A model generated the notes under the pieces. It had not been told where the DNA came from. It saw only the letters and a program-made list of their open reading frames with translations, and did not search any database. From NCBI RefSeq assembly GCF_022662195.1, contig NZ_JAKMCS010000001.1:1-64000 (forward strand): a stretch of 64,000 nucleotides of DNA. The letters run 5' to 3'. This document shows, piece after piece, positions 7,583-54,134 of this stretch; position 1 is the stretch's first letter, and the number at the start of each line of letters is the position of its first letter. The DNA comes from Aestuariivivens insulae. Its GTDB lineage: Bacteria; Bacteroidota; Bacteroidia; Flavobacteriales; Flavobacteriaceae. The translations under genes and the position numbers were made by a program.

Positions 7583-7599
7583 GATAAGAATAACTTATC
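7583..7599. terminator. Possible terminator between convergent genes
   Basis: GATAAG (7583-7588) pairs with CTTATC (7594-7599) and is followed by TTTTT on the plus strand. It sits between the convergent lectin and enolase genes and overlaps the enolase stop codon. The stem is only 6 bp, so the call is weak. Confidence 0.35.
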
Positions 7600-8881
7600 T
7601 TTTTAAAATACGATCATAAATTCCACTCCCGATAAAAGTTGATTTACCCTTCAATTGGCGTTTTATTCTAAGGATTTCGTTCCACTTGACCATTCGTTCA
7701 CTCCGTGAAAATGACCCTACTTTTAATTGTCCGGCATTTGTTCCCACTGCTAAATGAGATATGAAAGCATCTTCGGTTTCACCGGACCTTGCCGATATTA
7801 CGGGAAGCCAACCCGCATTTTGTGTAAGTCGTATGGCCTCCATGGTTTCGGTAACGGTACCTATCTGATTCAATTTAATTAGTACGGCATTGGCCAACCC
7901 TTGATCAATACCTACTTGTATACGATTTTTATTAGTTGTAAATAGGTCGTCTCCAATGATTTGTAATTTATCGCCAAATTCAGCCGTAAATCGTTTCCAA
8001 TTAGTGACATCTGTATCAGCAAATGGGTCTTCAATTGAAATTATGGGATATTTTTCACACCAAGATTTCAATAATGCATAGAACTGATCTGGGGTAAAAC
8101 TTTTATGATCCAAGGGTAAATGATACTTGTCTTCTCTATAAAGGTCACTTGCGGCAATGTCCAATGATATCGAAACATCTTTACCAGGGATATATCCAGC
8201 TCTTTCGGTAGCGTCCAAAAACACTTGAAAAGGCTCTTCATTGGACGTGTAATTAGGCCACCATCCTCCTTCATCTGCAACACCTACACATTTCCCCCTT
8301 TCTTTCATTATTTCTCCTGCACTATGGTAGATATTATGAATAATTTCAAGACTTTCTTCGTAGCTCTTGGCTCCAATGGCAATAGCCAGAAAGTCCTGAA
8401 TATCGTTGGACCAACCCGCATGCGCACCACCACCGAGTATTTGAATTTCATTGAGTGGCAGCAAATTTCCTGTTCCTGAGCCCAAATATTCATACAAGGG
8501 GACATCCTTCGTTTCAGCGGCGGCACTTGCCACCGCCATAGAAGTTCCCAATATTGCATTGGCACCAAGTCTTGACTTATTTTTGGTTCCATCCAGTTTT
8601 ATCATGGTTTGGTCGATATCTTCTTGATCAAAAACAGATTTTCCTGCCAAGGCACCCGATATTTCTGTTTTTACATTGAGAATAGCCTTTCCAACTGACT
8701 TTCCCTTGAACCTTGTTTCATCTCCATCCCGGAGTTCATGCGCCTCAAACTGTCCTGTTGAAGCTCCAGAGGGCACCATTCCCTGTCCCTTAATCCCGTT
8801 GCTCAGGGTTACCTCTACCTCAAGGGTTGGATATCCTCTGGAATCATAAATTTGAAAAGCATCTATATCTGTTATTTTCAT
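7595..8881 (-). CDS. Divergent enolase-family protein (active-site His replaced)
   Basis: 428 residues, normal enolase length, aligning end to end with phosphopyruvate hydratase. Retained: the PSGASTG loop (37-43), H154 (GGAHA), E204 (VADEGG), metal ligands D241, E284 and D311, K336 and K387. Two positions are abnormal. The usual SHRSGETED reads SARSGETED, so the active-site His is Ala364. The usual QEF Glu is Asp163 (IQDF). The NGGSHAD and VDFQEF regions are also altered. It is the last gene of a catabolic operon, 12 bp after a kinase, whereas housekeeping eno is normally elsewhere. I infer a specialised role: 2-phosphoglycerate to PEP with altered kinetics, or a related 2-phospho-aldonate as substrate. 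Confidence 0.85.
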   Translation of the reverse strand: MKITDIDAFQIYDSRGYPTLEVEVTLSNGIKGQGMVPSGASTGQFEAHELRDGDETRFKGKSVGKAILNVKTEISGALAGKSVFDQEDIDQTMIKLDGTKNKSRLGANAILGTSMAVASAAAETKDVPLYEYLGSGTGNLLPLNEIQILGGGAHAGWSNDIQDFLAIAIGAKSYEESLEIIHNIYHSAGEIMKERGKCVGVADEGGWWPNYTSNEEPFQVFLDATERAGYIPGKDVSISLDIAASDLYREDKYHLPLDHKSFTPDQFYALLKSWCEKYPIISIEDPFADTDVTNWKRFTAEFGDKLQIIGDDLFTTNKNRIQVGIDQGLANAVLIKLNQIGTVTETMEAIRLTQNAGWLPVISARSGETEDAFISHLAVGTNAGQLKVGSFSRSERMVKWNEILRIKRQLKGKSTFIGSGIYDRILKR

Positions 8882-8893
8882 GTTTAAATTTAA

Positions 8894-9889
8894 TTATTGT
8901 TTTATCGAGATCATGTCTTTCCATGTCCTTATAAAATCCTTAAAGCTTGTTGTACCATTGGCCAATTCCAGATAAACAAAATCCCTAACAATTTGTTGTT
9001 GATCATTTTGCAAATATTCTAAGGGGGACTTACCATCCACTCTTGCCAACATCAGTAATAAGAGAAGGTGAATTAATTGGCTTTCAAACCGTTCTTCTCG
9101 GGCATGGTTTGACAATTCGGAGTAAGTTGCATAGGTTTCTTGGGCCAGAGCTATCAACTGAGCTGCCTTATCGGGGATATGCACAGCTTTGAGAATAAAA
9201 TGATTCAACAGGAAGGCCAGATCAAATATGGGGTCGCCATACCATGCGACTTCGCAATCCAGTAGGACGAAACGATCTTTGGACACCAAAATGTTTTTGG
9301 GACTGAAGTCTCCATGGACAAGGCATTTTTGGACTGACGCCAATCGCTTGGCTTCGGCATGAAAATAGGACTCTAACTTTGGGTGGGCTTCGGCCGTATA
9401 CAAAAGGTATGGCTCGATGCGCAACTCCTTAAAATTCTGCAAGGTGTCAAAAGTCTTCTTTGCTTCGATGTCTGCCGCGGAATAATTATGAATGGTGGCC
9501 ATAATTTTACCAGCCATTTGCCCGAATGATTTATTGATTTTTCCTTTCAATAGTAGATGCTTCCAATTGGAAAGACCACCTTCCAACATTTCCATGCAAA
9601 AAAAGTGATGTTGGTCATCACTAAAAAATACTTGAGGTACGGCTTCCGGCAGAATCTTTGCAACATATTTGAGGTACCGCAGTTCTATTTGGTTTCTTTT
9701 GACATCGGCGAACCAATCATCCTTGACCTTCAATTTTGGCAAAGCTCTTTTGACCACAAACTTGTTACTCCCGTCATCAATAAGAAGTAACTCACTTGAA
9801 ATTCCGCCACTAAGTGAACTTACTTTGACTGACGTGGAGTGTATTAGTTCTTTCTTTACCAAATAATTAATGAGTTGATTATGTTTCAT
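8894..9889 (-). CDS. APH/choline-kinase-fold small-molecule kinase
   Basis: 331 residues with the aminoglycoside-phosphotransferase fold. It has a possible ATP-binding lysine in FVVKRA (K47), the catalytic HGDFSPKNILV (H192-D194, N199) and the metal-binding DCEVAWYGDPIFDLAF (D211). APH-fold enzymes phosphorylate hydroxyls of many small molecules, so the fold alone gives no substrate. It sits between the FAH hydrolase and the divergent enolase in one transcription unit, so a glycerate or sugar-acid kinase is a better guess than antibiotic resistance. A glycerate 2-kinase role would feed the enolase directly. Function is inferred from context only. Confidence 0.75.
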   Translation of the reverse strand: MKHNQLINYLVKKELIHSTSVKVSSLSGGISSELLLIDDGSNKFVVKRALPKLKVKDDWFADVKRNQIELRYLKYVAKILPEAVPQVFFSDDQHHFFCMEMLEGGLSNWKHLLLKGKINKSFGQMAGKIMATIHNYSAADIEAKKTFDTLQNFKELRIEPYLLYTAEAHPKLESYFHAEAKRLASVQKCLVHGDFSPKNILVSKDRFVLLDCEVAWYGDPIFDLAFLLNHFILKAVHIPDKAAQLIALAQETYATYSELSNHAREERFESQLIHLLLLLMLARVDGKSPLEYLQNDQQQIVRDFVYLELANGTTSFKDFIRTWKDMISIKQ

Positions 9890-9941
9890 TGGTTTTATTC
9901 CCTGAATTTTGGTTGTTAAATCGATCTTTGGTTTCGTTCGA

Positions 9942-10787
9942 TTAAATGAACGTCTGTCTTTGATTGCCCAATCGTTCTATTTCCACTTCTACAATGTCAC
10001 CAGCTTTCAGATAGGTAGGAGGAGTTTTGCCAAAACCTACACCTGGAGGGGTTCCTGTGGTTATTATATCCCCTGCTTCCAATTTCATGAATTGTGAAAT
10101 ATAGTGTACTAAAAAAGCAGGCTTGAATATCATTGTTTTGGTATTGCCATTTTGCATGACCTCTCCATTAACTTTTAAAACCATTTTCAGGTCCAGTACA
10201 TCGGGGATGGAATCTGAAGTAACCAAATAGGGTCCAACGGGGCTAAATCCCGGACATGATTTACCTTTGACCCATTGACCTTGTCTTTCAACTTGGAATT
10301 CTCTTTCCGAAACATCATGCATAATGCAATAACCTGCAATTGCCTCCAAGGCTTCCTGCTCATTTTCTAGGTACAGCACATCTTTTTTCAACACTATGCC
10401 AAGTTCCACCTCCCAATCTGTCTTAGTACTATTTTTTGGTATTTGTACATTATCGTTTGGACCGTTCAAGGTATTTGTTGCTTTCATAAAAAGTATGGGT
10501 TCCGTCGGGATGGCCAAACCAGCTTCTTTGGCATGGTCAGTATAATTTAGCCCTACACATATAATCATATTTGGTCTTGCTATACAGGCTCCCCAACGTA
10601 TGTTTTTATCGACTTTCGGAAAAGCATTTGGGTTGTCCTTTAACATTGCTGTCAATTTGTTTAGACCATTACTGGCAAAAAAATTATGGTTCCAATCTTC
10701 AAAGTGCTCTGAACAATCTCTTCTATCTCCATTTATGAATACTCCAGGTTTTTCCTGTTCTTTTTCTCCAAATCGTATTAAATGCAT
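9942..10787 (-). CDS. FAH-family hydrolase (2,4-diketo-3-deoxy sugar acid type)
   Basis: 281 residues of the fumarylacetoacetate hydrolase family. Conserved marks are VGLNYTDHA (H85), the metal ligands in WEVELGIV (E126, E128) and D158 in MHDVSERE, and the TGTPPGVG loop near the end. Close relatives hydrolyse 2,4-diketo-3-deoxy-L-fuconate or -rhamnonate to pyruvate plus a hydroxy acid, and are typically encoded beside an SDR that makes the diketo acid. That is the arrangement here: it follows the SDR by 10 bp. The carbon skeleton of the substrate cannot be told from sequence. With a hexonate the second product would be glycerate. Confidence 0.8.
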   Translation of the reverse strand: MHLIRFGEKEQEKPGVFINGDRRDCSEHFEDWNHNFFASNGLNKLTAMLKDNPNAFPKVDKNIRWGACIARPNMIICVGLNYTDHAKEAGLAIPTEPILFMKATNTLNGPNDNVQIPKNSTKTDWEVELGIVLKKDVLYLENEQEALEAIAGYCIMHDVSEREFQVERQGQWVKGKSCPGFSPVGPYLVTSDSIPDVLDLKMVLKVNGEVMQNGNTKTMIFKPAFLVHYISQFMKLEAGDIITTGTPPGVGFGKTPPTYLKAGDIVEVEIERLGNQRQTFI

Positions 10788-10797
10788 ACTGTATAAT

Positions 10798-11586
10798 TTA
10801 AGTGTTAAGTGTTACAAATCCACCATCGATGGGATAATTGCTGCCTGTCATAAATGAGGCCTCATCACTACATAGATAGAGGACAAGATTGGCAATCTCC
10901 AAAGGTTTCCCCATTCTGCCTATCGGCTGGGTGTTTGAAAGCTTTTCAAACATTTCCGATTCTTGACCAGGGTAATATTTTGCCAAATAGCCGTCCACAA
11001 AGGGAGTGTGCACACGACCAGGGGATAAGCAATTGCACCGAATATTGTCCTGTACAAAATCCCTAGCGATGGAATAGGTCATGGTGGTGATGGCACCTTT
11101 ACTCGCTGAATAGGCAAATCTATTGGGAAGGCCAACTACGGTAGCAGCTGAAGCCATATTTACAATACAGCCTTTCTTCTGTTTTTTCATATACGGGATA
11201 CATGCAAAAACACAATTGTAAACTCCTTTGACATTGATTTTCATGATTTGGTCAAAATCATGTTCCTTGGTATCCTCCGCTGTTCCAATATGAGCTATAC
11301 CTGCGTTGTTAATCAATATATCAATACTTCCATTCTGATCATAAATTTTGTTTACAATAGATAAAACTTGTTTTTGGTCAGACACATCACAGGTCCAAAA
11401 ATGGCAATTACCGCCATCAGCTACTATTTCTATCGTGGAGGCCTCTCCTTTTTCTTGATTAATGTCCAAGATGTGTACAACAGCACCTTGTTCTGACAGT
11501 TTTTTGGATATAGCTAGGCCTATGCCATCGGCACCTCCTGTCACCAAGGCTATTTTGTTTGTCAAATCAAACATTTTATTTTTCAT
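10798..11586 (-). CDS. SDR-family dehydrogenase (sugar-acid type)
   Basis: 262-residue classical short-chain dehydrogenase. It has the nucleotide-binding TGGADGIG (16-23), NNAG (93-96), Ser146, and the catalytic Tyr159 and Lys163 in YSASK. An Asp after strand 2 (HILDIN, D41) favours NAD+ over NADP+. In related operons such an SDR oxidises C4 of a 2-keto-3-deoxy aldonate before FAH-type cleavage. The 10-bp gap to the FAH gene supports that pairing. It could instead act as an aldose dehydrogenase feeding the lactonase next door. The start may be the second Met (residue 5). Confidence 0.82.
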   Translation of the reverse strand: MKNKMFDLTNKIALVTGGADGIGLAISKKLSEQGAVVHILDINQEKGEASTIEIVADGGNCHFWTCDVSDQKQVLSIVNKIYDQNGSIDILINNAGIAHIGTAEDTKEHDFDQIMKINVKGVYNCVFACIPYMKKQKKGCIVNMASAATVVGLPNRFAYSASKGAITTMTYSIARDFVQDNIRCNCLSPGRVHTPFVDGYLAKYYPGQESEMFEKLSNTQPIGRMGKPLEIANLVLYLCSDEASFMTGSNYPIDGGFVTLNT

Positions 11587-11610
11587 AGTAATTATGTTAT
11601 TATGAATAGG

Positions 11611-12675
11611 TTAAAAGATGACGCAAACCGGTGTACCACAAGCTTCAATGGCTTGATTGTCATGTTTTGGGAGGCCAGTTTGTCTGTCCAGTTCAAAACT
11701 TGTCAAAGTATCCGAATTTTGATTAGCACAAATCAACCATTTCCCACTGGGGTCAATATTGAAATCCCTTGGTTCGTCTCCTTCTGTATTAAATCGTGAT
11801 TCAAAAAATAATTTTCCTGATTTTTGATCAATGGAGAAAACCGAAATACTGTTATGGATTCTATTTGAGATGTAGAGGGTTTTTCCATTGGGATGCAACC
11901 TTATGGCGGATGCTGAAGGCAGACCCGTATAATCTTTTGGAAGTGTTGGAATATCATCTATAAGTTCTAATATACCTGTTTTCTCATTATAGCGTAATGT
12001 AAGTACATGGGCGTTCAATTCGCAAATAAGATATACCAATGGATGTTTTTCCGAAAAAACCAGATGCCTCGGGCCATATCCCGGTGGCAATATGATTTTG
12101 CGAAGATCTGACTCTTCACCAGTCAGATTTTTTAAGTCCAGTAACCATATGGCATCACTGCCCAGGTCACAAACGTAGAGCCATCTTCCACTCGGGGAAA
12201 CTATGGCACAGTGCGCATGTGAATCTTCTTGCCTATCCTTATTGGGACCATTTCCCTGGAATTCATAGATGAAGTGTGCTGGCATCAAATTGCCATCGCA
12301 TATTTCGTATATAGAGAGTTTGCTGTCCAAGTAAGAGGTGGCAAATACCATAGGAGAAGCCCCATTCATTGTGCTTACATGACAGGTCGCTGTCCCTAAA
12401 GTGCTTTGGGACGAAAGTTTTAGCAAGGAAATGCCTTTTTCAATGCGATAAGCAAGAATATTGCCCGGATCAAAATATTCATCCGATGCGATCAAGAGTA
12501 GGTCTTCGCCTAGTTTGGTCATATAGGTGGAATTGACAATATTTTCATGTGTAACCAGTTTTCTCATCTGGCCTGAATTTATATCCAGGGACCAAACCGT
12601 CAATCCTTCACCGTTGATTTTAGGGAAGTATCCACCTTTTTTGGTATAAGAACCTACATAAAATAATTGATTCAC
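11611..12675 (-). CDS. Lactonase-family seven-bladed propeller (sugar lactonase)
   Basis: 354 residues of the lactonase/YbhE (6-phosphogluconolactonase) propeller family. Typical features are the start FYVGSYT, repeated blades ending in SIYE / WLLDL / ISVFSID, DSHAHCAIVSPSGRWLYVCDLGSD, the SASAIRLHPNGKTLYISNR blade and EPRDFNIDPSGKWLICANQ. There is no signal peptide, so it is cytoplasmic. Since neighbours act on free sugar acids, the likely role is opening an aldonolactone made by a dehydrogenase. It is separated by 24 bp from the SDR and by 173 bp from the UxuA-type gene. Confidence 0.8.
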   Translation of the reverse strand: MNQLFYVGSYTKKGGYFPKINGEGLTVWSLDINSGQMRKLVTHENIVNSTYMTKLGEDLLLIASDEYFDPGNILAYRIEKGISLLKLSSQSTLGTATCHVSTMNGASPMVFATSYLDSKLSIYEICDGNLMPAHFIYEFQGNGPNKDRQEDSHAHCAIVSPSGRWLYVCDLGSDAIWLLDLKNLTGEESDLRKIILPPGYGPRHLVFSEKHPLVYLICELNAHVLTLRYNEKTGILELIDDIPTLPKDYTGLPSASAIRLHPNGKTLYISNRIHNSISVFSIDQKSGKLFFESRFNTEGDEPRDFNIDPSGKWLICANQNSDTLTSFELDRQTGLPKHDNQAIEACGTPVCVIF

Positions 12676-12848
12676 TTTGCTTAGATTTGTATAATTTTCT
12701 AATTATCAACCTATTGGTTGCTTTGTGCCTATTACGATAACCCCTAAATCACATCATGCCAAAATGTTAACGTGTCCTCCCAAAGGCATTTTTGATGTTT
12801 TCTCAAATTTCCAAGTAATACGTAATCGAGTTAATCGTACTGGAGAAC

Positions 12849-13937
12849 TTAATTAGCCTTGATTTCTTTTTTGCTGGAATCCATCATTGCTTTAATATAT
12901 CCCATGGCAAATGCCATGCCTGTCACCCAAGGTGTTTGTGTACTCACTTGAGGAGCATGGTCCGGAATGATTACACCTTGAAAATCATTTTTTTTCAAAA
13001 TTTCCATGATTCGTTCAACGTCCATATCACCTTCGTCAATAAATGATTCTTTATAAGTTGGAACCTTGCCTTTTACATTTCGCAAATGGATATACCCTAT
13101 TTTATTATTTTTTGCAAAGTAATCAAGGGCTTCATAGACATTCGAATCTTCCATTTCACTTAACGTCCCCAAGCATAATTCCATTCGATGATTTGGGCTA
13201 TTGTAGAACTGCATGACATCTTTATAATGGTCAGGGTGATACCCCATTCTAGGTTGTTTTCTCATTTCTTTAATTGGTGGATCATCAGGGTGAAGGGCCA
13301 GGATAACACCGGCCTCCTCGGCAATAGGCAACAATTGAGACAGGAACTCTTTATATCTATTCACCAATTCATCATGGGTGATGGTTTCCAAAAAGCCCCC
13401 TGTCGCATTTTCGTCATAAACCATGTTCCATACCATTCCCTTGGGTATTGGGGCTTTAACCGCCTCTGATATACCTTCCATGCCAACAGAGATAGCTCCT
13501 CCTCTAGCGTATGGCCCAATGGTTCTTGCAGCAACACCGGCCAATGAAAAATTATATCCCATAATGGGAATACCGGCCTTTCCCATATTGCGTATCAGGA
13601 TTTTCAGGTTTTCGAACTGTTCTTTTTTCTTAGGTCCATCCAATAGGATATCATACCAAAATGCGGGACTGAAATTCTCCAAGGCCTCTAGTTCGAGATC
13701 GAATTTGGCCATCTCATCTTTAAGTGAGATAAGCTGTTCGTAAGACCAAACACTTGTTTCCTTTGCTATTCCCCATCCTTTGTCAATAGTGCCCAACGGT
13801 TGGTCATCCGAACCGGTGTCACTTTTGTGAAAATAATCCGTTAAATGGGCCACAATATGGGTTGCTCCCAATTGCCTGGCCATCTTATAATGCTCATCAT
13901 TCAGCATGTGGCTATATAGTCCAAAACCTAATTTCAT
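12849..13937 (-). CDS. UxuA-family mannonate dehydratase
   Basis: 362-residue TIM-barrel enzyme of the UxuA family, which dehydrates D-mannonate to 2-keto-3-deoxy-gluconate. Family marks are LALHPDDPP, a Cys in ELCLGTLSEM, the His of YIHLRNVKG, and IIPDHAPQ with D326-H327. From memory of characterised UxuA structures, these correspond to the Mn2+ ligands and catalytic His. This copy therefore looks catalytically complete. It is the first gene of the six-gene minus-strand operon, divergent from the DUF5054 operon across 366 bp. UxuA together with mannosidases suggests mannose as the starting sugar. Related family members have other aldonate substrates, so exact specificity is open. Confidence 0.78.
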   Translation of the reverse strand: MKLGFGLYSHMLNDEHYKMARQLGATHIVAHLTDYFHKSDTGSDDQPLGTIDKGWGIAKETSVWSYEQLISLKDEMAKFDLELEALENFSPAFWYDILLDGPKKKEQFENLKILIRNMGKAGIPIMGYNFSLAGVAARTIGPYARGGAISVGMEGISEAVKAPIPKGMVWNMVYDENATGGFLETITHDELVNRYKEFLSQLLPIAEEAGVILALHPDDPPIKEMRKQPRMGYHPDHYKDVMQFYNSPNHRMELCLGTLSEMEDSNVYEALDYFAKNNKIGYIHLRNVKGKVPTYKESFIDEGDMDVERIMEILKKNDFQGVIIPDHAPQVSTQTPWVTGMAFAMGYIKAMMDSSKKEIKAN

Positions 13938-14303: not shown

Positions 14304-17018
14304 ATGAGATTTATAGTTTTTGCTTTAGGAAAATTGCGGGTTCACTTATTGGTGACATTGCTATTGGTTGTTGTCAAGTTAAATGCTCAATTTGAAGCTG
14401 TAGATATTGATGGGGGGTCCAATGAGAGCCAGGTTACAGATATTATTGTGGTTTTTAAGATGCATGTGGATGTGGGGTATACCGATTGGGGAGAGGGAGT
14501 GCTTCAAAAATACACTGGTTCTATGTTGGATGAAACCCTCAGGTCGTTGGAGGTCACTGCTGATTTACCAAAAGAGGAACAATTTGTTTGGACGATTCCA
14601 GGTTGGCCACTGAAATATATCATGGAAAACAGTCCAGAAAACAAAGGTGATGCGCTGGGTCGAGCGATCCAAAATGGGAGAGTGGTACCCCATGCTTTCG
14701 CCTTCAATGTACAGACCGAAGCTAGCGACCTGGAAAGCATGGTGCGTGGGTTTTCCTATACTTCTGATTTGAATAGGGGTTTTGGGTTGCCAGAGGCACG
14801 AGATGCGAAATTTACAGATGTCCCAAGTCATTCTTGGGCATTACCTACATTGCTAAGCAATGCAGGGGTGGATCTGCTCCACATAGGTTGTAACCCGGGC
14901 TCCGCTTCTCCCAAAGTTCCTACACTTTTTTGGTGGAAAGGACCGGATGGCTCCAAGTTGATGACATTCTATTGGTCAGAGTACTATGGTTCAGGGATTT
15001 TGCCTCCGAAAAATTGGCCCTATAAAACATGGTTGGCGATGATACATACACATGAAAATACAGGTTCGCCATCACCTGAAGATGTAGCTAAATTACTAAA
15101 GGAGACCAAAAAAAAACTGCCCAATGTGAATATCAAGATGGGTAGGTTATCTGATTTCTATGACAAGATTATGGAAGAAGGTCCTGATTTGCCCGTGGTT
15201 GAAGGGGATATGCCAGACACGTGGATTCATGGTTATATGTCCAATCCTATTGAAACCAAATTAAGTAAAAAACTTCAGCGCAAAACCTTCCATGTGGAAA
15301 CGTTGGGCACCATGATGAAGCAGTGGGGGGTTACGTCAAATTCAGAGGGAGAGCTCTTGCAACCTGCGATAGAAAACATGCTGTTGTATGATGAGCATAC
15401 ATTTGGGGCAGCCTTGTCACATGGGAACCAACATAAATGGACATATAACGATGAATTTAAAGTAAATAAGGCATTGGGTCATTACGATTATCTTGAAGCC
15501 ACATGGGTTGAAAAAAGAAACCGAATACGAAAGGCACAAAAAATTGTTGAGGCCATATTGAATCGCAAATTAAAAAAACTAGCTTCATCGGTCAACGTTG
15601 ATGGGAAAAGGATAGTAGTTTACAATCCCTCGGCTTGGGAGCGGGGTGGCAGGGTTAACATGTTTGCTGGGGTGTATGCCAAAGATTTCCATATTTACGG
15701 CCTTAAAGACCTTAGCACTGGTAAAATTACAAGAGTTTATGATGATAAAAACCTGCTAACATTTGATGTAGAAGCTATACCCGCGCAGGGCTATAAAACA
15801 TATATTCCCATTTTGGAACCAATTGCCGATAACCAGTCCATTGTAATGGACAAAACTACCAACATTATTGAGAATAAGTACTTTAAACTTCAAATTGACA
15901 AAGAAAAAGGTACGATTAAAACATTAGTCGACAAGCAAAATGGACGTGAGCTGGTAAATAGGGAAAGTGAGTACGGATTTGGAGCGTATTTTCTAGAACG
16001 CCCTGGGCAAAGAGTAATTGACCTTTACAATAAAAATTACATAAAACCAGGAGCGGAGAATTGGGCAAAACCTGAAATGATTCGCTCGTCAGTACCCTAT
16101 AAAGAGACTAAAATCTTTAAAGGCGGTTGTAATAAAATCACCTATTTAGATATGGGCAATGCGGTACGGGCCACTGTTTGGTGCAAACTTGGCGACAAAG
16201 ATGAGCAGTCCTATTTGATGAGCTATACGCTCTACGAAAATCAACCCTATGTTGAAATTAATTGGGGAGTTGATGGTAAAAAACCAAACGCCTTGCCCGA
16301 GGCAGGATGGATTTCATTTTCTTTTAATGTTGACAGTCCCGATTATAGGCTATACCGTACTGGTGGGATCGTAAATCCAAAAACGGATTTATTGGAAAAT
16401 TCCAATACTGATTATCATTTCTTAAATACATCGATGACACTTTTTGATGCAGATGGGAATGGAATTGGTCTGAATTCACCCGAGTCACCTGCCGTTAGTA
16501 TCGATGCGCCGGGACTATTTCAATTTACAGGGGACAAAAAACCAAAAACCGCCAACGTTTTTGTCAACCTTTTCAATAATCAATGGGGCACTAATTTTTC
16601 TGAATGGATTGAAGGCTCATTTTCTTCAAAAATGTACCTATGGAGTTATAAGGAATATGATTCGGAAAAAAGCTTCATCACGCCATCCGAAGAGACCAGG
16701 GTGCCGTTACAAGGGGTTTATTACGACGGAAAAGCTGGTGTACACCCTACTTCACAGAATGGAATAGGAATTAGCAAAAAAGGTGTTTTGGTCACTGCTT
16801 TTTACAAAAGCAAAGAGGGTACGATCTTAAGGCTTTGGGAACAGGCAGGAAAAGATGGGGCCTGTACTGTAAAGTTGACAAACGGCGGCAGTTTCGAAAG
16901 GGCATATAGATGTGATTTAAGAAATAATGTCATAGATAGCATAGGAGTTGAAATTGTTGACGATTCCTTTAGCTATGACCTTAAAAAGAATCAACCTGTA
17001 ACTTTTATTTTAAAATGA
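14304..17018 (+). CDS. GH38-like DUF5054 family secreted glycosidase
   Basis: 904 residues with a signal peptide ending near VKLNAQ. The N-terminal barrel starts DIIVVFKMHVDVGYTDW (H and D about residues 53 and 55), the DUF5054 version of the GH38 HxDxG metal site. At about residue 171 it has TDVPSHSW where GH38 enzymes have their nucleophile Asp. A late beta-rich region (residues about 520-900) matches the GH38 C-terminal sandwich. The family is distantly related to alpha-mannosidases, but its activity is not something I can state. The gene overlaps the next ORF by 4 nt (ATGA), so the two were co-translated before the next one decayed. Confidence 0.7.
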   Translation: MRFIVFALGKLRVHLLVTLLLVVVKLNAQFEAVDIDGGSNESQVTDIIVVFKMHVDVGYTDWGEGVLQKYTGSMLDETLRSLEVTADLPKEEQFVWTIPGWPLKYIMENSPENKGDALGRAIQNGRVVPHAFAFNVQTEASDLESMVRGFSYTSDLNRGFGLPEARDAKFTDVPSHSWALPTLLSNAGVDLLHIGCNPGSASPKVPTLFWWKGPDGSKLMTFYWSEYYGSGILPPKNWPYKTWLAMIHTHENTGSPSPEDVAKLLKETKKKLPNVNIKMGRLSDFYDKIMEEGPDLPVVEGDMPDTWIHGYMSNPIETKLSKKLQRKTFHVETLGTMMKQWGVTSNSEGELLQPAIENMLLYDEHTFGAALSHGNQHKWTYNDEFKVNKALGHYDYLEATWVEKRNRIRKAQKIVEAILNRKLKKLASSVNVDGKRIVVYNPSAWERGGRVNMFAGVYAKDFHIYGLKDLSTGKITRVYDDKNLLTFDVEAIPAQGYKTYIPILEPIADNQSIVMDKTTNIIENKYFKLQIDKEKGTIKTLVDKQNGRELVNRESEYGFGAYFLERPGQRVIDLYNKNYIKPGAENWAKPEMIRSSVPYKETKIFKGGCNKITYLDMGNAVRATVWCKLGDKDEQSYLMSYTLYENQPYVEINWGVDGKKPNALPEAGWISFSFNVDSPDYRLYRTGGIVNPKTDLLENSNTDYHFLNTSMTLFDADGNGIGLNSPESPAVSIDAPGLFQFTGDKKPKTANVFVNLFNNQWGTNFSEWIEGSFSSKMYLWSYKEYDSEKSFITPSEETRVPLQGVYYDGKAGVHPTSQNGIGISKKGVLVTAFYKSKEGTILRLWEQAGKDGACTVKLTNGGSFERAYRCDLRNNVIDSIGVEIVDDSFSYDLKKNQPVTFILK

Positions 17019-18262
17019 TGAGATCAATAAAGTTTTCTAAAATAAGAGTTAAAATAATCGTTCTTTCTCTATGTGCTGTATCAGCTTTTGAGCCATTAAC
17101 GGCCCAACAACCAACAATTTCAGCAATTAGCCCAACCCCTTTCTTTCCTGGACAAGAATCTGATAAAACCCTAAAGCAAATTGCAAAAATTAAGGTTGAG
17201 AATCGTGGCACTACAACTTCTTTACGTCTTAAGCTTGAATTAGCAGACTATGAAACCTTCATTACCGATTTTGGTGTAGTTGACTCTGGTAGTCATATTT
17301 TCAATGTTTTGGTTCCAGATGTTAAATCAGCCACAGATATGACCTTTACATTGCTCAATAAAGAAGGCCGATTATTGGATGGGAAACATATGACATGGCA
17401 GCCGCAAAAGAAATGGAAGATATATTATGCAGCCATCTCTCACCATGTTCTTGGCTTTATAACCTATTACCAAAATATAAGGAGAGGAGTACGGGAAGAA
17501 GGAATCGATCTAGCTCTTGAATATTATGAAGAAACTGATTCTTGGAGCGAAAATGACCAATTCAGGTGGAATATCGGAACCAGTGAGCCACTTTTTCGCT
17601 GGATGTCAAAACAAAAACCTGAGAAAATAAAAGAGCTAGAACGCAGAATACATAATACTGGAAGGAAGAATAGGGTTTTCAATAAAGAAGTGGGAAGCAT
17701 GGTATTAGATGAGATAAAGCATCATCTTGATTTTCTTCATCCGGAATCCATACAATGGAATCCCATCCAAGTTCTTGATAAAATGGGAAATGGGGAAGAC
17801 ATACTCTACTGTCCGCATTTGTTTGGTTATACCAACTATTCCCGAGAAGGATATACGAAATACGTTGTACATTTTACCCATAGTCCAGTTGGTAAACAAA
17901 AAAATATTTCAACACTACTTGGAGGCGTTGGGTTGGCGGTTTCTTCGAAATCCAATTATCCGTATATAGCGACCAATTTTGTGGAATCTGAAATACAAGA
18001 AGGTGTATTTACATTAAATGATGGACAACCAGGAAACATGATAGCTTGGCAGAATGAGAATAACAACGCTTTGTGCGGTAATTTCTTCAAAGACACCCTT
18101 TCAACCATAGAAAAAGCATACGTTAGACCAAAGCATACTGGGTGGAACGAATTTCAGGATCAAGGATGCGTTTTATTGCATGAGCGCATCCTAAAAAATA
18201 GGCCTCCGTCTAAAATCATGAATGATTTGAACGAACTATACAAATCAATCTATTGCCTGTAG
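17015..18262 (+). pseudogene. Chimeric ORF: GH38 N-terminus fused to solute-binding-protein C-terminus
   Basis: Residues 1-217 align with the start of a GH38 protein: signal peptide ending LTAQQ, a pre-domain, KKWKIYYAAISHHVLGF, and FRWNIGTSEPLFRWMSKQ as in the GH38 at 25009-28470 (KKWKVNFVQHSHTDIGY, FRWTCEASW). From about residue 218 (nt ~17,665) the sequence switches to something resembling the last ~195 residues of family 1 sugar-binding ABC proteins (LFGYTNYSREGY, LLGGVGLAVSSKS, GQPGNMIAW, VRPKHTGW). The metal-binding HxD reads HHV, so the Asp is lost and the catalytic domain ends early. The best explanation is an in-frame deletion joining two former neighbours. The joined frame is open, so a protein may still be made. 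Confidence 0.65.
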
Positions 18263-18370: not shown

Positions 18371-20554
18371 ATGAAAAAACGCAAATTGTCAATATTAGCT
18401 TTAATTGCTTTGATTTGCGCAAATCAACAGGTATCAGCACAGACTATACCAACTCCTGCTGAGCCAGAATACTACGCAATGAACAGCCAGCAAATGGCCT
18501 TTGATGACTACCAAACCTTGCTCATCAACTATCGCGGTTTTGTAAGTCCAAGACAGTACAGCGTCACCCAGTTCACGAATGTCAACTTCTTGCCCATTCA
18601 ATCCGAGTTCTACCATTTTAACCTAAACTTTCACGACAAGGCTACCGGACGTATAATCGAGGATGATGTTCCTATCAAGTGGAAATCATGGATAGATGAT
18701 CGCGGTAGTTATGATCCCCTTGGTTCCAACTTCAGACCAAATTCTCCTTCCATCGTGGTTACACAAGACGAAAATTGGCAGCCCAATTCCAGTCACAGGA
18801 AAGGTACATTTCACAAAGAATACGACCAGAAATGGGTTAGTTTCTCGTTGGAAAGTTGGACAAATGTCTCTTACCATGACGATGAGGTATTTATTAAACT
18901 GATTCTGACCAACAGAAATTCCAAGGATTTGAACATGACCCTCGAGCCCAACCAGGTTGCCGAGCAAATAGTGGTCAGTGGCAAAGAGACTGCAATTGAA
19001 GTCAACAAAATCGACAATTTTACCCTTGGCAGCCAAGGGGCACGTGCCCGTGTGTCATCCACTATTGAAACCGTCAGCGATAAAGGGTTTGAAATAAACA
19101 TAAAGCCCGGCGAATCTAAAACCTACTATTTCGCCATTAAATTTTACCAAACGGGCCAACCCGATCCCGCAATAATACAGCCTGACATTCCCCAACGTAT
19201 GGCGGCCGCGGATAAAAAGACCCGTGAAATGCTGGCTTGGGCCTACGATAGGCTCCCACAGCTTACAAGTTCTAATAAGCAATTGGAAGAATATTACTAC
19301 AGGTGTATGCTGTCGGTTTTAATGAGCCGATATGAAAACCCTAATTACATATCAGATGTGTTTTGGGCCGTAGGCACATGGCCTTTTACTATAAGTTGGG
19401 ACACCTCCTATGCTTCCGATGTTATTGCCATGCTAGATCCCGAAAGTTTAAAAGGTGCCATCCTCACGGATTTTGAGCATGTAAAAATGAATAGAACCTA
19501 TGTGGGTTGGAATGGTGCGCAATGGGACAATCTATATATTCAGGAACCTTTTGCACTTCAGTTAATGATAGAAGCTTATTTGAAGCACACAGGCGATTAT
19601 TCCCTATTTGATGAAAAAGTTGCCGGCAATTCTGTATGGGAATGGATGCAACGCTGGGTAACCGAACTCCAAACCAATTATACCAACGAGCTTGGCCTAA
19701 TCGATGTGGGCTATAATACCGAAAAGATTATTGAAATACGTACAGATGGATACAATCATGCCGTACCTATAACCAATACCTTGACAATTGACCTTTTGCA
19801 CACCATGGCCGATTGGGCGCAAATGAGAAATGAAAAAAGCTTGGAGAAGACCTATGCTAAAGAGGCAGAAAAACTAACTTCCTTAGTCAACAAATATTTG
19901 TGGAACGAGAAAGAAGGTTGGTTTGACAACCTCTACCCCGATGGCACCAAAGGTACCATCTGGACGTTTCATCTTTTTGATCTCTTAGGTGCAGATTATT
20001 TGCCTTCCCATCAAGTAAATAAATTAGTGAGCCATCTTCAAGAAGGTATATTTTTAGGGAAATTTGGTGTGTATTCCATAGCTCCGAAAGACAAAGTCCA
20101 TTGGGATATGATCGACTCTGATTGGGGCGGTGGTGGCCAATATTTAGGATTGCCCGGTAGAGCTTCAAAATACCTTTATCAACAAGGGTTTGCCGGAAAG
20201 GGCTGGGATGTCCTCAAAAGACACATAAGGTCTATTGATCATTTCCCTTATTTACCTCAAAACGCACGTACCGATAGGCCTGAACAAGATCGTTCTTCCA
20301 TGCCCTTGGAGATTTCGGCAGGTGCCGGAATGGAAGCTATTATATTCGGAACCTTCGGTGTAAAAATGGAAGGCAATACTATAACGTTTCAACCTATCAA
20401 TAATGAGGACATAGGTACAGCTCAAATGAAAAACATTATGTACCGAGGAAAAAACTACGGGGTCAAACTTGAAAAAAAGACTTTTTCGGTTTACGAGAAT
20501 GACACCCTTATTGAAACTAAATTCTACGGGGAATCGGTAATCATAATTCAATAA
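18371..20554 (+). CDS. Secreted (alpha/alpha)6-barrel glycosidase
   Basis: 727 residues with a signal peptide ending QQVSAQ. An N-terminal beta-sandwich (~20-270) is followed by an (alpha/alpha)6 toroid rich in aromatic and acidic motifs: VFWAVGTWPFTISWDTSYASDV, WNGAQWDNLYIQEPFALQLMIEAY, and a late DSDWGGGGQYLGLPGRA. A short C-terminal sandwich closes it. This layout fits the six-hairpin clans (GH63/GH78/GH127/MGH-like). I do not recognise the exact family. It is the first intact gene after the chimeric ORF and lies 40 bp before the UxuA-like gene, so it probably releases a sugar used by these enzymes. Confidence 0.65.
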   Translation: MKKRKLSILALIALICANQQVSAQTIPTPAEPEYYAMNSQQMAFDDYQTLLINYRGFVSPRQYSVTQFTNVNFLPIQSEFYHFNLNFHDKATGRIIEDDVPIKWKSWIDDRGSYDPLGSNFRPNSPSIVVTQDENWQPNSSHRKGTFHKEYDQKWVSFSLESWTNVSYHDDEVFIKLILTNRNSKDLNMTLEPNQVAEQIVVSGKETAIEVNKIDNFTLGSQGARARVSSTIETVSDKGFEINIKPGESKTYYFAIKFYQTGQPDPAIIQPDIPQRMAAADKKTREMLAWAYDRLPQLTSSNKQLEEYYYRCMLSVLMSRYENPNYISDVFWAVGTWPFTISWDTSYASDVIAMLDPESLKGAILTDFEHVKMNRTYVGWNGAQWDNLYIQEPFALQLMIEAYLKHTGDYSLFDEKVAGNSVWEWMQRWVTELQTNYTNELGLIDVGYNTEKIIEIRTDGYNHAVPITNTLTIDLLHTMADWAQMRNEKSLEKTYAKEAEKLTSLVNKYLWNEKEGWFDNLYPDGTKGTIWTFHLFDLLGADYLPSHQVNKLVSHLQEGIFLGKFGVYSIAPKDKVHWDMIDSDWGGGGQYLGLPGRASKYLYQQGFAGKGWDVLKRHIRSIDHFPYLPQNARTDRPEQDRSSMPLEISAGAGMEAIIFGTFGVKMEGNTITFQPINNEDIGTAQMKNIMYRGKNYGVKLEKKTFSVYENDTLIETKFYGESVIIIQ

Positions 20555-20594: not shown

Positions 20595-21632
20595 ATGAAA
20601 AGACTACTAAAATCAGAAAAATGGGCCAATCTCCCAATGCGCCCTGGTTTTGGCTCATTTATGCACCCTACCGAAGAGAAACTTACCCTTATTAAGCAAT
20701 TAGGCGTGGACGATATCATTTTAAACATGTACAGGAATAACCTTATTGACACCAACTTTGATTCCTTACCCCTACCCGGGGACTATCAATGGGAATATAA
20801 AGATATGCTCATGCTCCGCAATACAGTGGAAAATGCAGGTATAAGATTACTCGCGTTAGAAAATATGCCTTGGACCTTCTATGATAAAATCATGACAGGT
20901 CAACCAGGTAGGGAAGAACAATTGAAACACGTTCAGGAAACCATTTCAAACATGGGCAGTGCTGGGATTCCGGTTTTGGGTTATGCATGGACACCAACAG
21001 GCGTATGGCGATCATCCACTACATATAGAATTAGGGGTGGGGCTCAAGCCATGAGTGTGAACCTTAATGATTTTAAGAATGCTCCCCTTTCTCATGGCCG
21101 TGTTTTTTCAGAAGAAGAAATGTGGGATTATTATCAGTATTTTCTAGAAGGTGTATTGCCTGTTGCAGAAAAGGCCGGTGTCACCTTGGCACTACACCCA
21201 AACGATCCACCGGTACCAAGTTTGGCTGGAGTACCCCAGTTGTTCAGGAGTTTTGAGGCGTATAAAAAGGCTATGGAATTGGTAAAAAGTGATAATCACG
21301 GCCTGCAATACTGTTTAGGCAATTTTTCTGAAATGGGAGAGGATATTAACGCAGTAACAGAATATTTTGCAAAGCAGGACAAGTTAATATATGTACATTT
21401 TCAAACAGTTTCCAATTCTCTGGTCAATAACCATAAATTTAACGAGGTCTTCGTTGATATGCCAGGGTATTATGATCCTGTATCTGTGCTGAAGAAGTTC
21501 AAGGAAGTTGGTTTCAAAGGTATGATAATGCCCGGTCATGTACCTAAAATTATAGGTGACGGGTCTTGGGAAGAAAGAGGTAGGTCTTTCACTATTGGTT
21601 ATATCAAGGGTATTATGGCGGCTCTGGATTAA
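20595..21632 (+). CDS. UxuA-family paralogue with altered metal site
   Basis: 345 residues, clearly homologous to the protein at 12849-13937: LALHPNDPP, QYCLGNFSEMG, LIYVHFQTV, then MIMPGHVPK. Here the Asp of the IIPDH motif is Gly (G314-H315), and the HPDDPP loop reads HPNDPP. If the Asp is a metal ligand as in characterised UxuA enzymes, the metal site is changed and the substrate or reaction may differ. It is followed by a sugar MFS transporter and an SDR. A dehydratase for another aldonate, or a sugar isomerase-like role, are the two readings I consider likely. Confidence 0.72.
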   Translation: MKRLLKSEKWANLPMRPGFGSFMHPTEEKLTLIKQLGVDDIILNMYRNNLIDTNFDSLPLPGDYQWEYKDMLMLRNTVENAGIRLLALENMPWTFYDKIMTGQPGREEQLKHVQETISNMGSAGIPVLGYAWTPTGVWRSSTTYRIRGGAQAMSVNLNDFKNAPLSHGRVFSEEEMWDYYQYFLEGVLPVAEKAGVTLALHPNDPPVPSLAGVPQLFRSFEAYKKAMELVKSDNHGLQYCLGNFSEMGEDINAVTEYFAKQDKLIYVHFQTVSNSLVNNHKFNEVFVDMPGYYDPVSVLKKFKEVGFKGMIMPGHVPKIIGDGSWEERGRSFTIGYIKGIMAALD

Positions 21633-23104: not shown

Positions 23105-23875
23105 ATGGATAGATTAAAAAATAAAGTGAGCATTGTTACAGGTGCTGCTGACGGAATTGGCCTTGCGATAAGCCAGTCATTTGCAAAAGAAGGAGCTATT
23201 GTGGTGATGGCGGACATCAATAATGAAAAATGTAGTAGGGAAGCAAAAAAAATCGTAAAAGAAGGGCATCAAGCGGTTGCTTTGGCTTGTGATGTTGGCA
23301 AGATGAACTCAGTAAATCAAACGGTGGATTATTGCTTAGATAAATATGGAAGGGTTGATGTGCTGGTGAACAACGCGGCAGTGTCCATTTCAGGTAATAT
23401 TATGGAGATGTCGGAGGAGGATTGGGATTATTTGATGAACATTAATCTCAAGGGTGTCTTCAGATGTATCAAGGCCTGTTTGCCCTCCATGATTTCCAAC
23501 AGAAATGGCAGTGTGATTAATATAGCATCCGGTCAAGCCCACAGGAGTTGGAATGACTGGACTGCCTATGCTACTGCAAAAGGAGGTATGATTTCAATGA
23601 CGACCCAATTGGCAGGACAGTTTGGAGATATGAATATACGTTTTAACACGATATCTCCTGGTGCCATTTTAACACCTATGGCAGAGGAAAGAATAAAAAC
23701 TGAAGGAGAGGATTACGTGAAGGGCTCTGAATTTCAAGCCTCAATGTTACGTTTTGGAGAACCAATTGAAGTAGCACTGACTGCTGTATTTTTGGCATCG
23801 GATGAGTCAAGTTTTATAACTGGTGATGACTTGAAAGTAGATGGAGGACTTACCTCTCTTCCACGATACATGTGA
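23105..23875 (+). CDS. SDR-family dehydrogenase, second copy
   Basis: 256-residue classical SDR with TGAADGIG (12-19), the catalytic triad Ser142, Tyr155 and Lys159 (YATAK), and Asp37 after strand 2 (MADIN), suggesting NAD+. It is separate from, but similar in length to, the SDR at 10798-11586. Its start is almost joined to the transporter stop, so the two genes are translated together. A sugar 1-dehydrogenase that makes an aldonolactone would complete the pathway begun by the transporter. A role on the 2-keto-3-deoxy acid is equally possible. Last gene of the plus-strand operon. Confidence 0.8.
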   Translation: MDRLKNKVSIVTGAADGIGLAISQSFAKEGAIVVMADINNEKCSREAKKIVKEGHQAVALACDVGKMNSVNQTVDYCLDKYGRVDVLVNNAAVSISGNIMEMSEEDWDYLMNINLKGVFRCIKACLPSMISNRNGSVINIASGQAHRSWNDWTAYATAKGGMISMTTQLAGQFGDMNIRFNTISPGAILTPMAEERIKTEGEDYVKGSEFQASMLRFGEPIEVALTAVFLASDESSFITGDDLKVDGGLTSLPRYM

Positions 23876-53900: not shown

Positions 53901-54134
53901 ATACGAGGTCAAAATTTGAATCTGGCGTACAATTTCAATAAGTCGCTTATGGAGAAATTGGGGATTCAGTCAGCAAAAATTTATATGAACCTTCAAAACT
54001 TTTTCCTGATTACCGATTATCATGGTTATGATCCAGAGGTCAGTTCCTTTGGCGGGCAGTTTACTGAAGGCATTGAGCTAAATGGCTATCCAAGGCCAAT
54101 GAATATGAATTTAGGATTTATGTTAACTCTCTAA
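50968..54134 (+). pseudogene. SusC/RagA-type TonB-dependent transporter, frameshifted
   Basis: Two overlapping frames together make one SusC of about 1055 residues. The first (50968-52110) carries the signal peptide, carboxypeptidase-D-like domain (SGSVSDSDGTPLPGATVI), TonB box (LDEVVVVGYGAQKK) and plug (IYGARGANGVILITTKRG), and runs correctly up to VGDASFVNDYP. The barrel then continues in another frame as DYPQLFTADGTRAGEPIYDTDWF through to the stop at 54134. The shift lies at about 51,920, where TATCCGATTAC reads as though one C of CCC were lost. Both halves are otherwise undamaged, so this is a recent mutation, a reversible slip or a sequencing error. As written, no full transporter is made. 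Confidence 0.82.

Follow-up and report, generated by a model that had tools for sequence, protein, structure and literature searches.

The first 64,000 nucleotides of contig NZ_JAKMCS010000001.1 of Aestuariivivens insulae (NCBI RefSeq assembly GCF_022662195.1), herein called the window, carry a run of six minus-strand genes that starts with a UxuA-like dehydratase gene and ends with a kinase gene and a gene for a divergent enolase. The six genes are confirmed as real: each is an open reading frame (ORF) at the coordinates below, and Pfam agrees for all six with the families named in an earlier, sequence-only reading of this DNA.

12849..13937, minus strand: UxuA-like TIM-barrel dehydratase (362 aa; PF03786, 143 bits)
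11611..12675, minus strand: 7-bladed beta-propeller lactonase (354 aa, GTG start; PF10282, 308 bits)
10798..11586, minus strand: SDR1, probable 2-keto-3-deoxy-sugar-acid 4-dehydrogenase (262 aa; adh_short/adh_short_C2, 192/213 bits)
9942..10787, minus strand: FAH-family protein, predicted 2,4-diketo-3-deoxy acid hydrolase (281 aa; FAA_hydrolase PF01557, 237 bits)
8894..9889, minus strand: APH-fold kinase, putatively of a three-carbon (C3) hydroxy acid (331 aa; PF01636, 67 bits)
7595..8881, minus strand: divergent enolase, partner of the kinase (428 aa; Enolase_C/N, 301/182 bits)

By the ORF calls, gaps of 173, 24, 10, 52 and 12 bases separate the successive genes. The Bacteroidota-type promoter pattern was matched twice in the window, against 4.7 matches expected by chance, and nowhere inside the run. 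The gene set appears to be more than chance, because the kinase-enolase pair is present in each genome examined and a near-complete set occurs in another phylum.

The kinase belongs to the APH family (PF01636); Fructosamin_kin was matched under its cut-off only, and neither of the Pfam glycerate kinase families, PF02595 and PF13660, was matched. Its AlphaFold2 model (pLDDT 92.7) is closest in fold to methylthioribose kinases (TM 0.76-0.85 on the query), followed by PsiK (0.74-0.76). The kinase is rare and patchily distributed. In clade-level searches, which kept matches at E 1e-40 to 1e-45 or better, it was found in 3 of the 397 genomes of the window genome's own family, that genome included. 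With the centre genome counted, the corresponding figures were 1 of 345 for the class, 1 of 4 for the genus, 6 of 92 for the family of a Rhodohalobacter genome and 5 of 321 for the order of a Flammeovirga genome. When 84,980 species genomes were scanned with a kinase alignment, restricted to two peptide patterns, 20 loci were obtained, and an enolase homologue follows the kinase in all 20 (L055 is in pieces, and L056 ends at a contig edge).

This association holds throughout the material examined. Our set of 31 genomes comprised the window, 27 genomes reached through the kinase and three (L068-L070) reached through the enolase and picked for its motifs; kinase and partner enolase occur together in all 31, in some of them in pieces. 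At L069 the kinase was matched as a fragment at the contig start only, and in the table of pairs the L069 enolase appears without a partner. Kinase and enolase ORFs overlap or almost abut in most loci, as judged by mechanical start calls, and no kinase without an enolase was seen among the loci examined. Distances between kinases and distances between enolases are correlated (r = 0.925, n = 28, with 0 of 9999 permutations reaching this value), a correlation that shared ancestry alone also yields. The kinase also matched 41 plasmid records, nine of them weakly (56-60 bits; three of the nine are annotated mtnK), and the neighbourhoods were examined in 18 regions of the 41. All 18 have an enolase homologue within about 6 kb of the kinase: it adjoins the kinase in 15, lies 4 to 6 kb off in L109, L120 and L122, precedes the kinase in L110, L111 and L123, and is on the opposite strand in L118.

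The enolase of the run matches TIGR01060 at 524.7 bits (cut-off 300), and its AlphaFold2 model (pLDDT 87.7) has a plain enolase fold (TM 0.94 to 1iyx). Its motifs deviate, as the sequence-only reading had noticed: SARSGETED and IQDF stand where ordinary enolases have SHRSGETED and IQEF, and the other catalytic positions compared are the same. In yeast numbering, with positions assigned by eye from the motifs, E168D, A215W, N152Q and N155G occur in 26 of 26 partner enolases, H373A in 25 of 26 (one has G) and G209A in 25 of 26 (one has C). D at 168, A at 373 and W at 215 are all absent from the 32 ordinary enolases compared. These 32, all from the same phylum, are 24 housekeeping sequences (28 stretches gave 26 sequences, two of which belonged to a second subtype and were moved out) and eight from a search for paralogues (10 stretches); L055, L056 and L069, too broken or cut, are omitted from the enolase counts. 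Further fixed differences from ordinary enolases occur at other positions, and a fixed D-to-H change lies at position 376 of the window enolase. S39, H159, E211, D246, E295, D320, K345, R374, S375 and K396 are kept. The partner enolase therefore shares its fold and its catalytic metal and lysine positions with the housekeeping enzyme, and differs from it at 168, 215, 152, 155, 209 and 373.

Residue H373 presumably lies at the C3-hydroxyl (leaving group) end of the active site, together with Glu168; here the window enolase has A and D, respectively. In the available part of PMC10619443, the equivalents of E168 and E211 are placed at the terminal carbon, and the alanine mutants of the Mycobacterium tuberculosis enzyme (Glu163 included) are called non-functional except one. 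The nearness of the changed residues to the active site is thus judged from motifs, from that partial source and from background on enolases. In our trees, the W-type enolases form one side of a branch (support 99/96 with 26 rows and 100/98 with 35 rows) and the ordinary enolases group at 100/100. The second subtype (L068 and L070), which has the same E168D, G209A and H373A changes and no W, groups weakly (87/39 in the 35-row tree); both trees contain some flagged long branches. By sequence, the partner enolases are a separate group with fixed changes at residues predicted to handle the leaving hydroxyl. The group was seen in Bacteroidota, Verrucomicrobiota, Bacillota and Pseudomonadota, and the related subtype in Bacteroidota, Pseudomonadota, Actinomycetota and haloarchaea; no relative turned up when viral contigs were scanned once with the enolase. 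On plasmids, 16 of 17 partner enolases have D, A and A at 168, 209 and 373 (L126, in pieces shorter than 300 aa, is omitted). The exception, the Enterobacter enolase of L118, has D, C and G, with K at the E211 position. Nine of these 17 read A at the expected metal-binding Ser39 (position 38 of the window enolase) in an unrefined alignment.

Other genes of the run accompany the pair in a part of the loci. Among the 18 plasmid regions, an FAH homologue was found in nine (44-51% identity in five of them) and a UxuA homologue in two (L125 and L126). In Sinorhizobium chiapasense (L125), a series of genes in one direction encodes a GntR-like protein, ABC proteins, an SDR, a UxuA-like protein (47%) and an SMP30-like protein, and continues with an epimerase-like protein, the kinase, the enolase, FAH (51%) and an SDR; the record carries no annotation at this place, and the lactonase, epimerase-like, GntR-like and ABC names were given by eye or through homologues named by eye. 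Its UxuA-like protein is nearer to a paralogue at C11:64001-84000, to the right of the window (54%), than to the protein of the run (47%). A Rhizobium plasmid (L126) has the same genes, with the UxuA-like gene, the enolase and perhaps the kinase in pieces. Roseibium (L113) and Paracoccus (L114) have the kinase, the enolase, FAH, an SDR and a sugar ABC importer, and no UxuA annotation was seen in the stretches viewed. In Balneolaceae (L048), the set consists of an SDR, FAH, an SDR resembling aldose dehydrogenases, SMP30-like and mutarotase-like genes (both by eye), the kinase and the enolase, with an IlvD-type dehydratase on the other strand in UxuA's stead. The view that these genes form one pathway is thus strengthened by near-complete sets in L125, L126 (broken) and L048, some of whose parts are non-homologous, while the role given to the SDR and the grouping of the enolase had to be corrected. 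Recurrence of the six-gene order in other Flavobacteriia had been proposed as a check. Within the window genome's own family the order was not found: in the two other kinase-bearing genomes among the 397, about 20 kb gave no match to UxuA, to the lactonase or to FAH.

Of the upstream enzymes, the UxuA-like protein aligns at its H-C-H-D positions to the mannonate dehydratases 3ban and 1tz9, positions which we take to be the metal ligands of that enzyme, and is 71% identical to its counterpart in Paraflavisolibacter (L037) and 47% to that in L125. The lactonase position is filled by an SMP30-like gene in L048 and L125 (by eye; 36% identity between those two). The nearest solved structure to the FAH protein is 8gsr, an L-2,4-diketo-3-deoxyrhamnonate hydrolase (258 bits), and the catalytic HxxE is present at 85-88 (H85, E88), together with EVELG.

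SDR1 has R at Y-3, R at Y+32, T before QP and Y at Y+41 (the last by eye), a pattern written here as R-R-Y-T. According to the accessible part of PMC11199699, these positions class the 2-keto-3-deoxyfuconate 4-dehydrogenases, and the pattern binds the C1 carboxyl of 2-keto-3-deoxy acids. The R-R-Y-T of SDR1 is close to types 3 and 4 of that paper, but its third residue is unlike both. It was found in all three Bacteroidota loci with an SDR1 relative (the window, L037 and L048) and was absent from seven other SDRs compared. The type 1 pattern, R-T-R-R, is carried by one SDR each in L125, L126, L113 and L114, the alphaproteobacterial loci with FAH, and not by five other SDRs of these loci; the tally leaves out two L113 SDRs, the one at 17468 (no readable line) and one more. 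In Sinorhizobium, Rhizobium and Roseibium, the carrier is the SDR after FAH. SDR1 therefore probably makes the C4 oxidation that FAH needs, as far as residues can tell. The sequence-only reading had taken it for the aldose dehydrogenase and had omitted C4 oxidation from its scheme; that assignment is disfavored by the residue pattern, though identity to the L125 SDRs leans the opposite way. Because SDR1 fits C4 oxidation, the aldose dehydrogenase would be another gene, perhaps SDR2. Two neighbors on the plus strand bear on these assignments:

20595..21632, plus strand: second UxuA-like protein (PF03786, 167 bits), a neighbor of the run
23105..23875, plus strand: SDR2, tentative candidate for an aldose 1-dehydrogenase, without the 4-dehydrogenase pattern

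The former shares about 30% identity with the L037 and L125 UxuA-like proteins. SDR2 is 37% identical to the aldose-dehydrogenase-like SDR of L048, almost tied with SDR1 at 35%, and 32% identical to the aldose dehydrogenase candidate of L125, versus 38% for SDR1.

On balance, the gene content favors an oxidative, non-phosphorylating sugar-acid pathway of the "Route III" type, with a dedicated ending that would lead from a C3 2-hydroxy acid to phosphoenolpyruvate (PEP). An aldose dehydrogenase encoded elsewhere would make a lactone, to be opened by the lactonase, and the UxuA-like protein would convert the aldonate to a 2-keto-3-deoxy acid. SDR1 would then oxidise C4 of this acid, and FAH would cleave the resulting 2,4-diketo acid to pyruvate and a C3 2-hydroxy acid. 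The APH-fold kinase would phosphorylate the C3 acid at O2, and the partner enolase would eliminate the C3 substituent to yield PEP. Every reaction is a prediction, and so is the acid, which would be glycerate or a close derivative. The sugar may be a mannose-type hexose, since the run lies among mannosidase genes, as the sequence-only reading had noted; Pfam finds one GH92 and three GH38 genes among the window proteins scanned, with a further GH38 by eye at 58998-62588. PEP as the product fits the PEP carboxylase gene (ppc) that stands directly upstream of the dehydrogenase-kinase genes in two Rhizobium plasmids. The new part of the system is the kinase-enolase module; the earlier scheme is partly supported and holds in outline once the SDR is given its other role.

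Several observations weigh against this pathway. The UxuA-like protein falls under both NCBIfam mannonate dehydratase cut-offs (NF003027, 120.8 versus 191 bits; TIGR00695, 71.8 versus 199.55 bits), and the closest NCBIfam model to FAH, NF053535 (2,4-didehydro-3-deoxy-L-rhamnonate hydrolase), is matched below its cut-off (336 versus 500). Overall identity places SDR1 nearer to the aldose dehydrogenase candidate of L125 (38%) than to the R-T-R-R SDR of that locus (32%). The SDRs immediately before the kinase in L045 and L087 are among those without R-R-Y-T, and in Paracoccus (L114) the SDR adjoining FAH lacks R-T-R-R, the pattern being carried by the next SDR. The Paraflavisolibacter locus (L037) has the set minus FAH and plus one extra SDR in the 21 kb viewed. 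Only four of the 31 genomes (the window, L037, L048 and L049) had an FAH or UxuA homologue matched near the pair, in stretches of up to about 10 kb per side; the other 27 had neither. Finally, a classical mannonate route probably lies beside the run: C11:64001-84000 encodes the UxuA paralogue, a PfkB protein resembling 2-keto-3-deoxygluconate (KDG) kinase (below cut-offs) and an aldolase for 2-keto-3-deoxy-6-phosphogluconate (KDPG; above cut-off).

Since 27 of the 31 genomes have no nearby FAH or UxuA match, the pair is not bound to this sugar route. Genes upstream of it elsewhere include aldehyde dehydrogenase genes (by profile in L038, with homologues in L089, L090 and L112) and genes for 2-hydroxyacid dehydrogenases of the GhrB/CtBP type (below family cut-offs). 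Neighbors of these kinds could deliver a C3 2-hydroxy acid.

Three explanations of the acid are variants of the Route III pathway, and the likelihoods given to them overlap. The single most likely acid is D-glycerate, to which we would give somewhat less than an even chance; different substrates, taken in sum, are about as likely. With D-glycerate, the kinase would act as a D-glycerate 2-kinase of the APH type, and the enolase would be a drifted, catabolic enolase of 2-phospho-D-glycerate. This acid is expected from D-mannose-type acids. Moreover, the families of the GhrB/CtBP-type neighbors found in other taxa produce mainly D-2-hydroxy acids, and the catalytic lysines, metal ligands, H159, R374 and S375 are retained in the partner enolase. 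Redundancy argues against it. The host has a PF02595 glycerate kinase (and no PF13660) and, at C11:578198, a second enolase with ordinary motifs that is 45% identical to the enolase of the run. The sequence-only reading had argued that glycerate would account for a kinase standing beside an enolase; in view of these two host enzymes, the argument is weaker than it looks. PF02595 was found in 14 of 26 kinase-bearing genomes searched and PF13660 in seven others (7 hits in 30 searched), so that 21 of the 26 own a canonical glycerate kinase. The PF02595 frequencies (9 of the 21 Bacteroidota among the 26, versus a background of 82 of 375 in the phylum) give no sign that the APH kinase replaces the canonical enzyme. 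Nor is D-glycerate favored by the absence, among the loci examined, of any kinase without its enolase, or by the replacement of E168 and H373 in 26 of 26 partner enolases, in view of the alanine mutants at equivalent positions, non-functional except one in the accessible text of PMC10619443. Taken together, redundancy, a constant partner and fixed changes speak against the kinase product being simply passed on to an ordinary enolase.

A substantial though not dominant possibility is that kinase and enolase form an unrecognised two-enzyme module for a substrate other than D-glycerate, either L-glycerate or a 3-O-substituted glycerate such as 3-O-methylglycerate. The classical route beside the run raises the question of why a second would be kept, and a sugar acid that is blocked at O6 or has the other C5 configuration might be the answer. 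Acids of the latter kind include L-gulonate, the C5 epimer of D-mannonate, and L-galactonate; from them, kinase and enolase would act as an L-specific pair on L-glycerate. We regard this variant as unlikely. It would account for the canonical glycerate kinase and enolase being insufficient. The solved FAH structure nearest to that of the run is of an enzyme for an L-rhamnonate derivative; likewise, the characterised relatives of SDR1 act on L-2-keto-3-deoxyfuconate in the accessible part of PMC11199699. The surrounding GH92 and GH38 genes speak for the other configuration, however, GhrB/CtBP neighbors are expected to yield D-acids, and the unchanged phosphate and base residues are ill-suited to an inverted C2.

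Slightly less likely still is a 3-O-substituted D-glycerate, for example 3-O-methylglycerate from 6-O-methyl hexoses, from which the enolase would eliminate methanol instead of water. The changed residues E168 (by the available part of PMC10619443) and, presumably, H373 sit at the leaving hydroxyl, and the phosphate, metal and base residues are kept. An O6-blocked acid would also be barred from the neighboring KDG-kinase route, which would explain two parallel routes. Against this, no methylated-sugar or methanol genes were noticed, though no search was aimed at them, and no precedent appeared in the open-licence literature among the matches listed. If this variant were true, the enolase would expel an alcohol to give PEP, and blocked sugars could be used without a P450 demethylase. 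A sulfonate as the leaving group is not favored, as the motif printouts showed by eye no consistent new positive charge, bar the D-to-H change at 376. That idea had been prompted by sulfolactate-like genes near the Paracoccus locus and a sulfatase near that of Roseibium.

A fourth explanation separates the pair from the sugar route. Kinase and enolase would be mere neighbors of SDR and FAH genes that convert a 6-deoxy sugar to lactate, and would use glycerate released from mannosylglycerate by the product of 18371-20554. This gene matches PF22422, mannosylglycerate hydrolase MGH1-like, at 37 bits (cut-off 27), and distant homologues (21-24%) flank kinase and enolase on one or both sides in L068-L070; two of these homologues, when tested, matched no Pfam family. 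In Sinorhizobium, Rhizobium, Roseibium and Paracoccus, however, the genes for kinase, enolase, FAH and SDR are clustered, and the stretches viewed contain no annotated or matched mannosidase. This makes the explanation improbable.

The proposed Route III pathway resembles, in different parts, several known systems. Known Route III pathways, as far as the partial sources describe them, have the same aldonate dehydratase, SDR 4-dehydrogenase and FAH-type hydrolase, giving pyruvate and a hydroxy acid, and end at lactate or glycolate; the run has a UxuA-like dehydratase and continues with a kinase and a divergent enolase. The classical mannonate route consists of UxuA, KDG kinase and KDPG aldolase. 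The run shares the UxuA-type dehydratase with it but has, in place of a KDG kinase and an aldolase, a 4-dehydrogenase-type SDR and FAH. The non-phosphorylative Entner-Doudoroff branch of archaea continues to enolase, and some loci described here likewise have aldehyde dehydrogenase, kinase and enolase in a row. In that branch, glycerate gets phosphorylated (accessible part of PMC2063504); the kinase herein has an APH fold and is not of PF02595 or PF13660, and its enolase belongs to a separate group. In the open-licence literature, none of the matches listed dealt with this gene set or with the pairing of an APH-type kinase and an enolase.

Enolase is among the most conserved enzymes, and eno genes are usually annotated as glycolytic without question. 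The group described here accompanies a kinase and, in part, sugar-acid catabolism, and two residues of its leaving-group site are lost. Should it act on something other than 2-phosphoglycerate, the enolase reaction would have been turned to a different leaving group or a different isomer. Even with 2-phosphoglycerate as the substrate, the set would define a pathway whose members carry separate annotations in the plasmid records seen ("aminoglycoside phosphotransferase family protein", "phosphopyruvate hydratase", "fumarylacetoacetate hydrolase family protein" and "SDR family oxidoreductase").

The pair was also observed in other surroundings. A second locus type (L109, L110, L117, L120, L122 and L123) combines a CtBP-/GhrB-like 2-hydroxyacid dehydrogenase with kinase and enolase, and with FAH in L110, L117, L120 and L123. 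By annotation, most of these loci also contain VOC/extradiol dioxygenase, cupin and alcohol dehydrogenase genes (in L109, an HpaD profile under cut-off), and an aromatic-type pathway may end there in the same module. In L066 and L067, the pair lies near an L-rhamnose isomerase-like gene (by eye in L066; by a profile under cut-off in L067) and near Lut-type lactate oxidation genes, with LutB above cut-off in L066. On the haloarchaeal plasmids L115 and L116, it occurs with several mandelate-racemase-type, ilvC-annotated, cupin and SDR genes. The Enterobacter plasmid of L118 (NZ_CP097174.1, 7145-16600) has a distant kinase homologue (30%) beside a divergent enolase-like gene (33%), with genes of the U32 peptidase, aminotransferase and MFS types next to them; here the pair may have been turned to biosynthesis. 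The Paracoccus kinase-enolase operon lies about 10 kb or more from a set (L129; NZ_CP067132.1, 3035-10666) that resembles sulfolactate breakdown by annotation: a UxaA-family pair, a hydroxyacid dehydrogenase, an Ldh-family oxidoreductase and a putative sulfate exporter.

Around the run, C11:64001-84000 (L071) also has CaiB-type CoA-transferase and enoyl-CoA hydratase-like genes around a lactonase paralogue, before the UxuA paralogue, and the L071 genes stand in a mannosidase cluster. In the window, a SusC-like gene (by eye) at 50968-54134 is read as two ORFs, 50968-52110 and 51936-54134, which overlap in different frames; the cause is a frameshift or a sequencing error. The proteins of 301-1293 and 17015-18262 have no Pfam match, the former none in NCBIfam either, and the latter has a homologue (49%) at C11:66053-67237.

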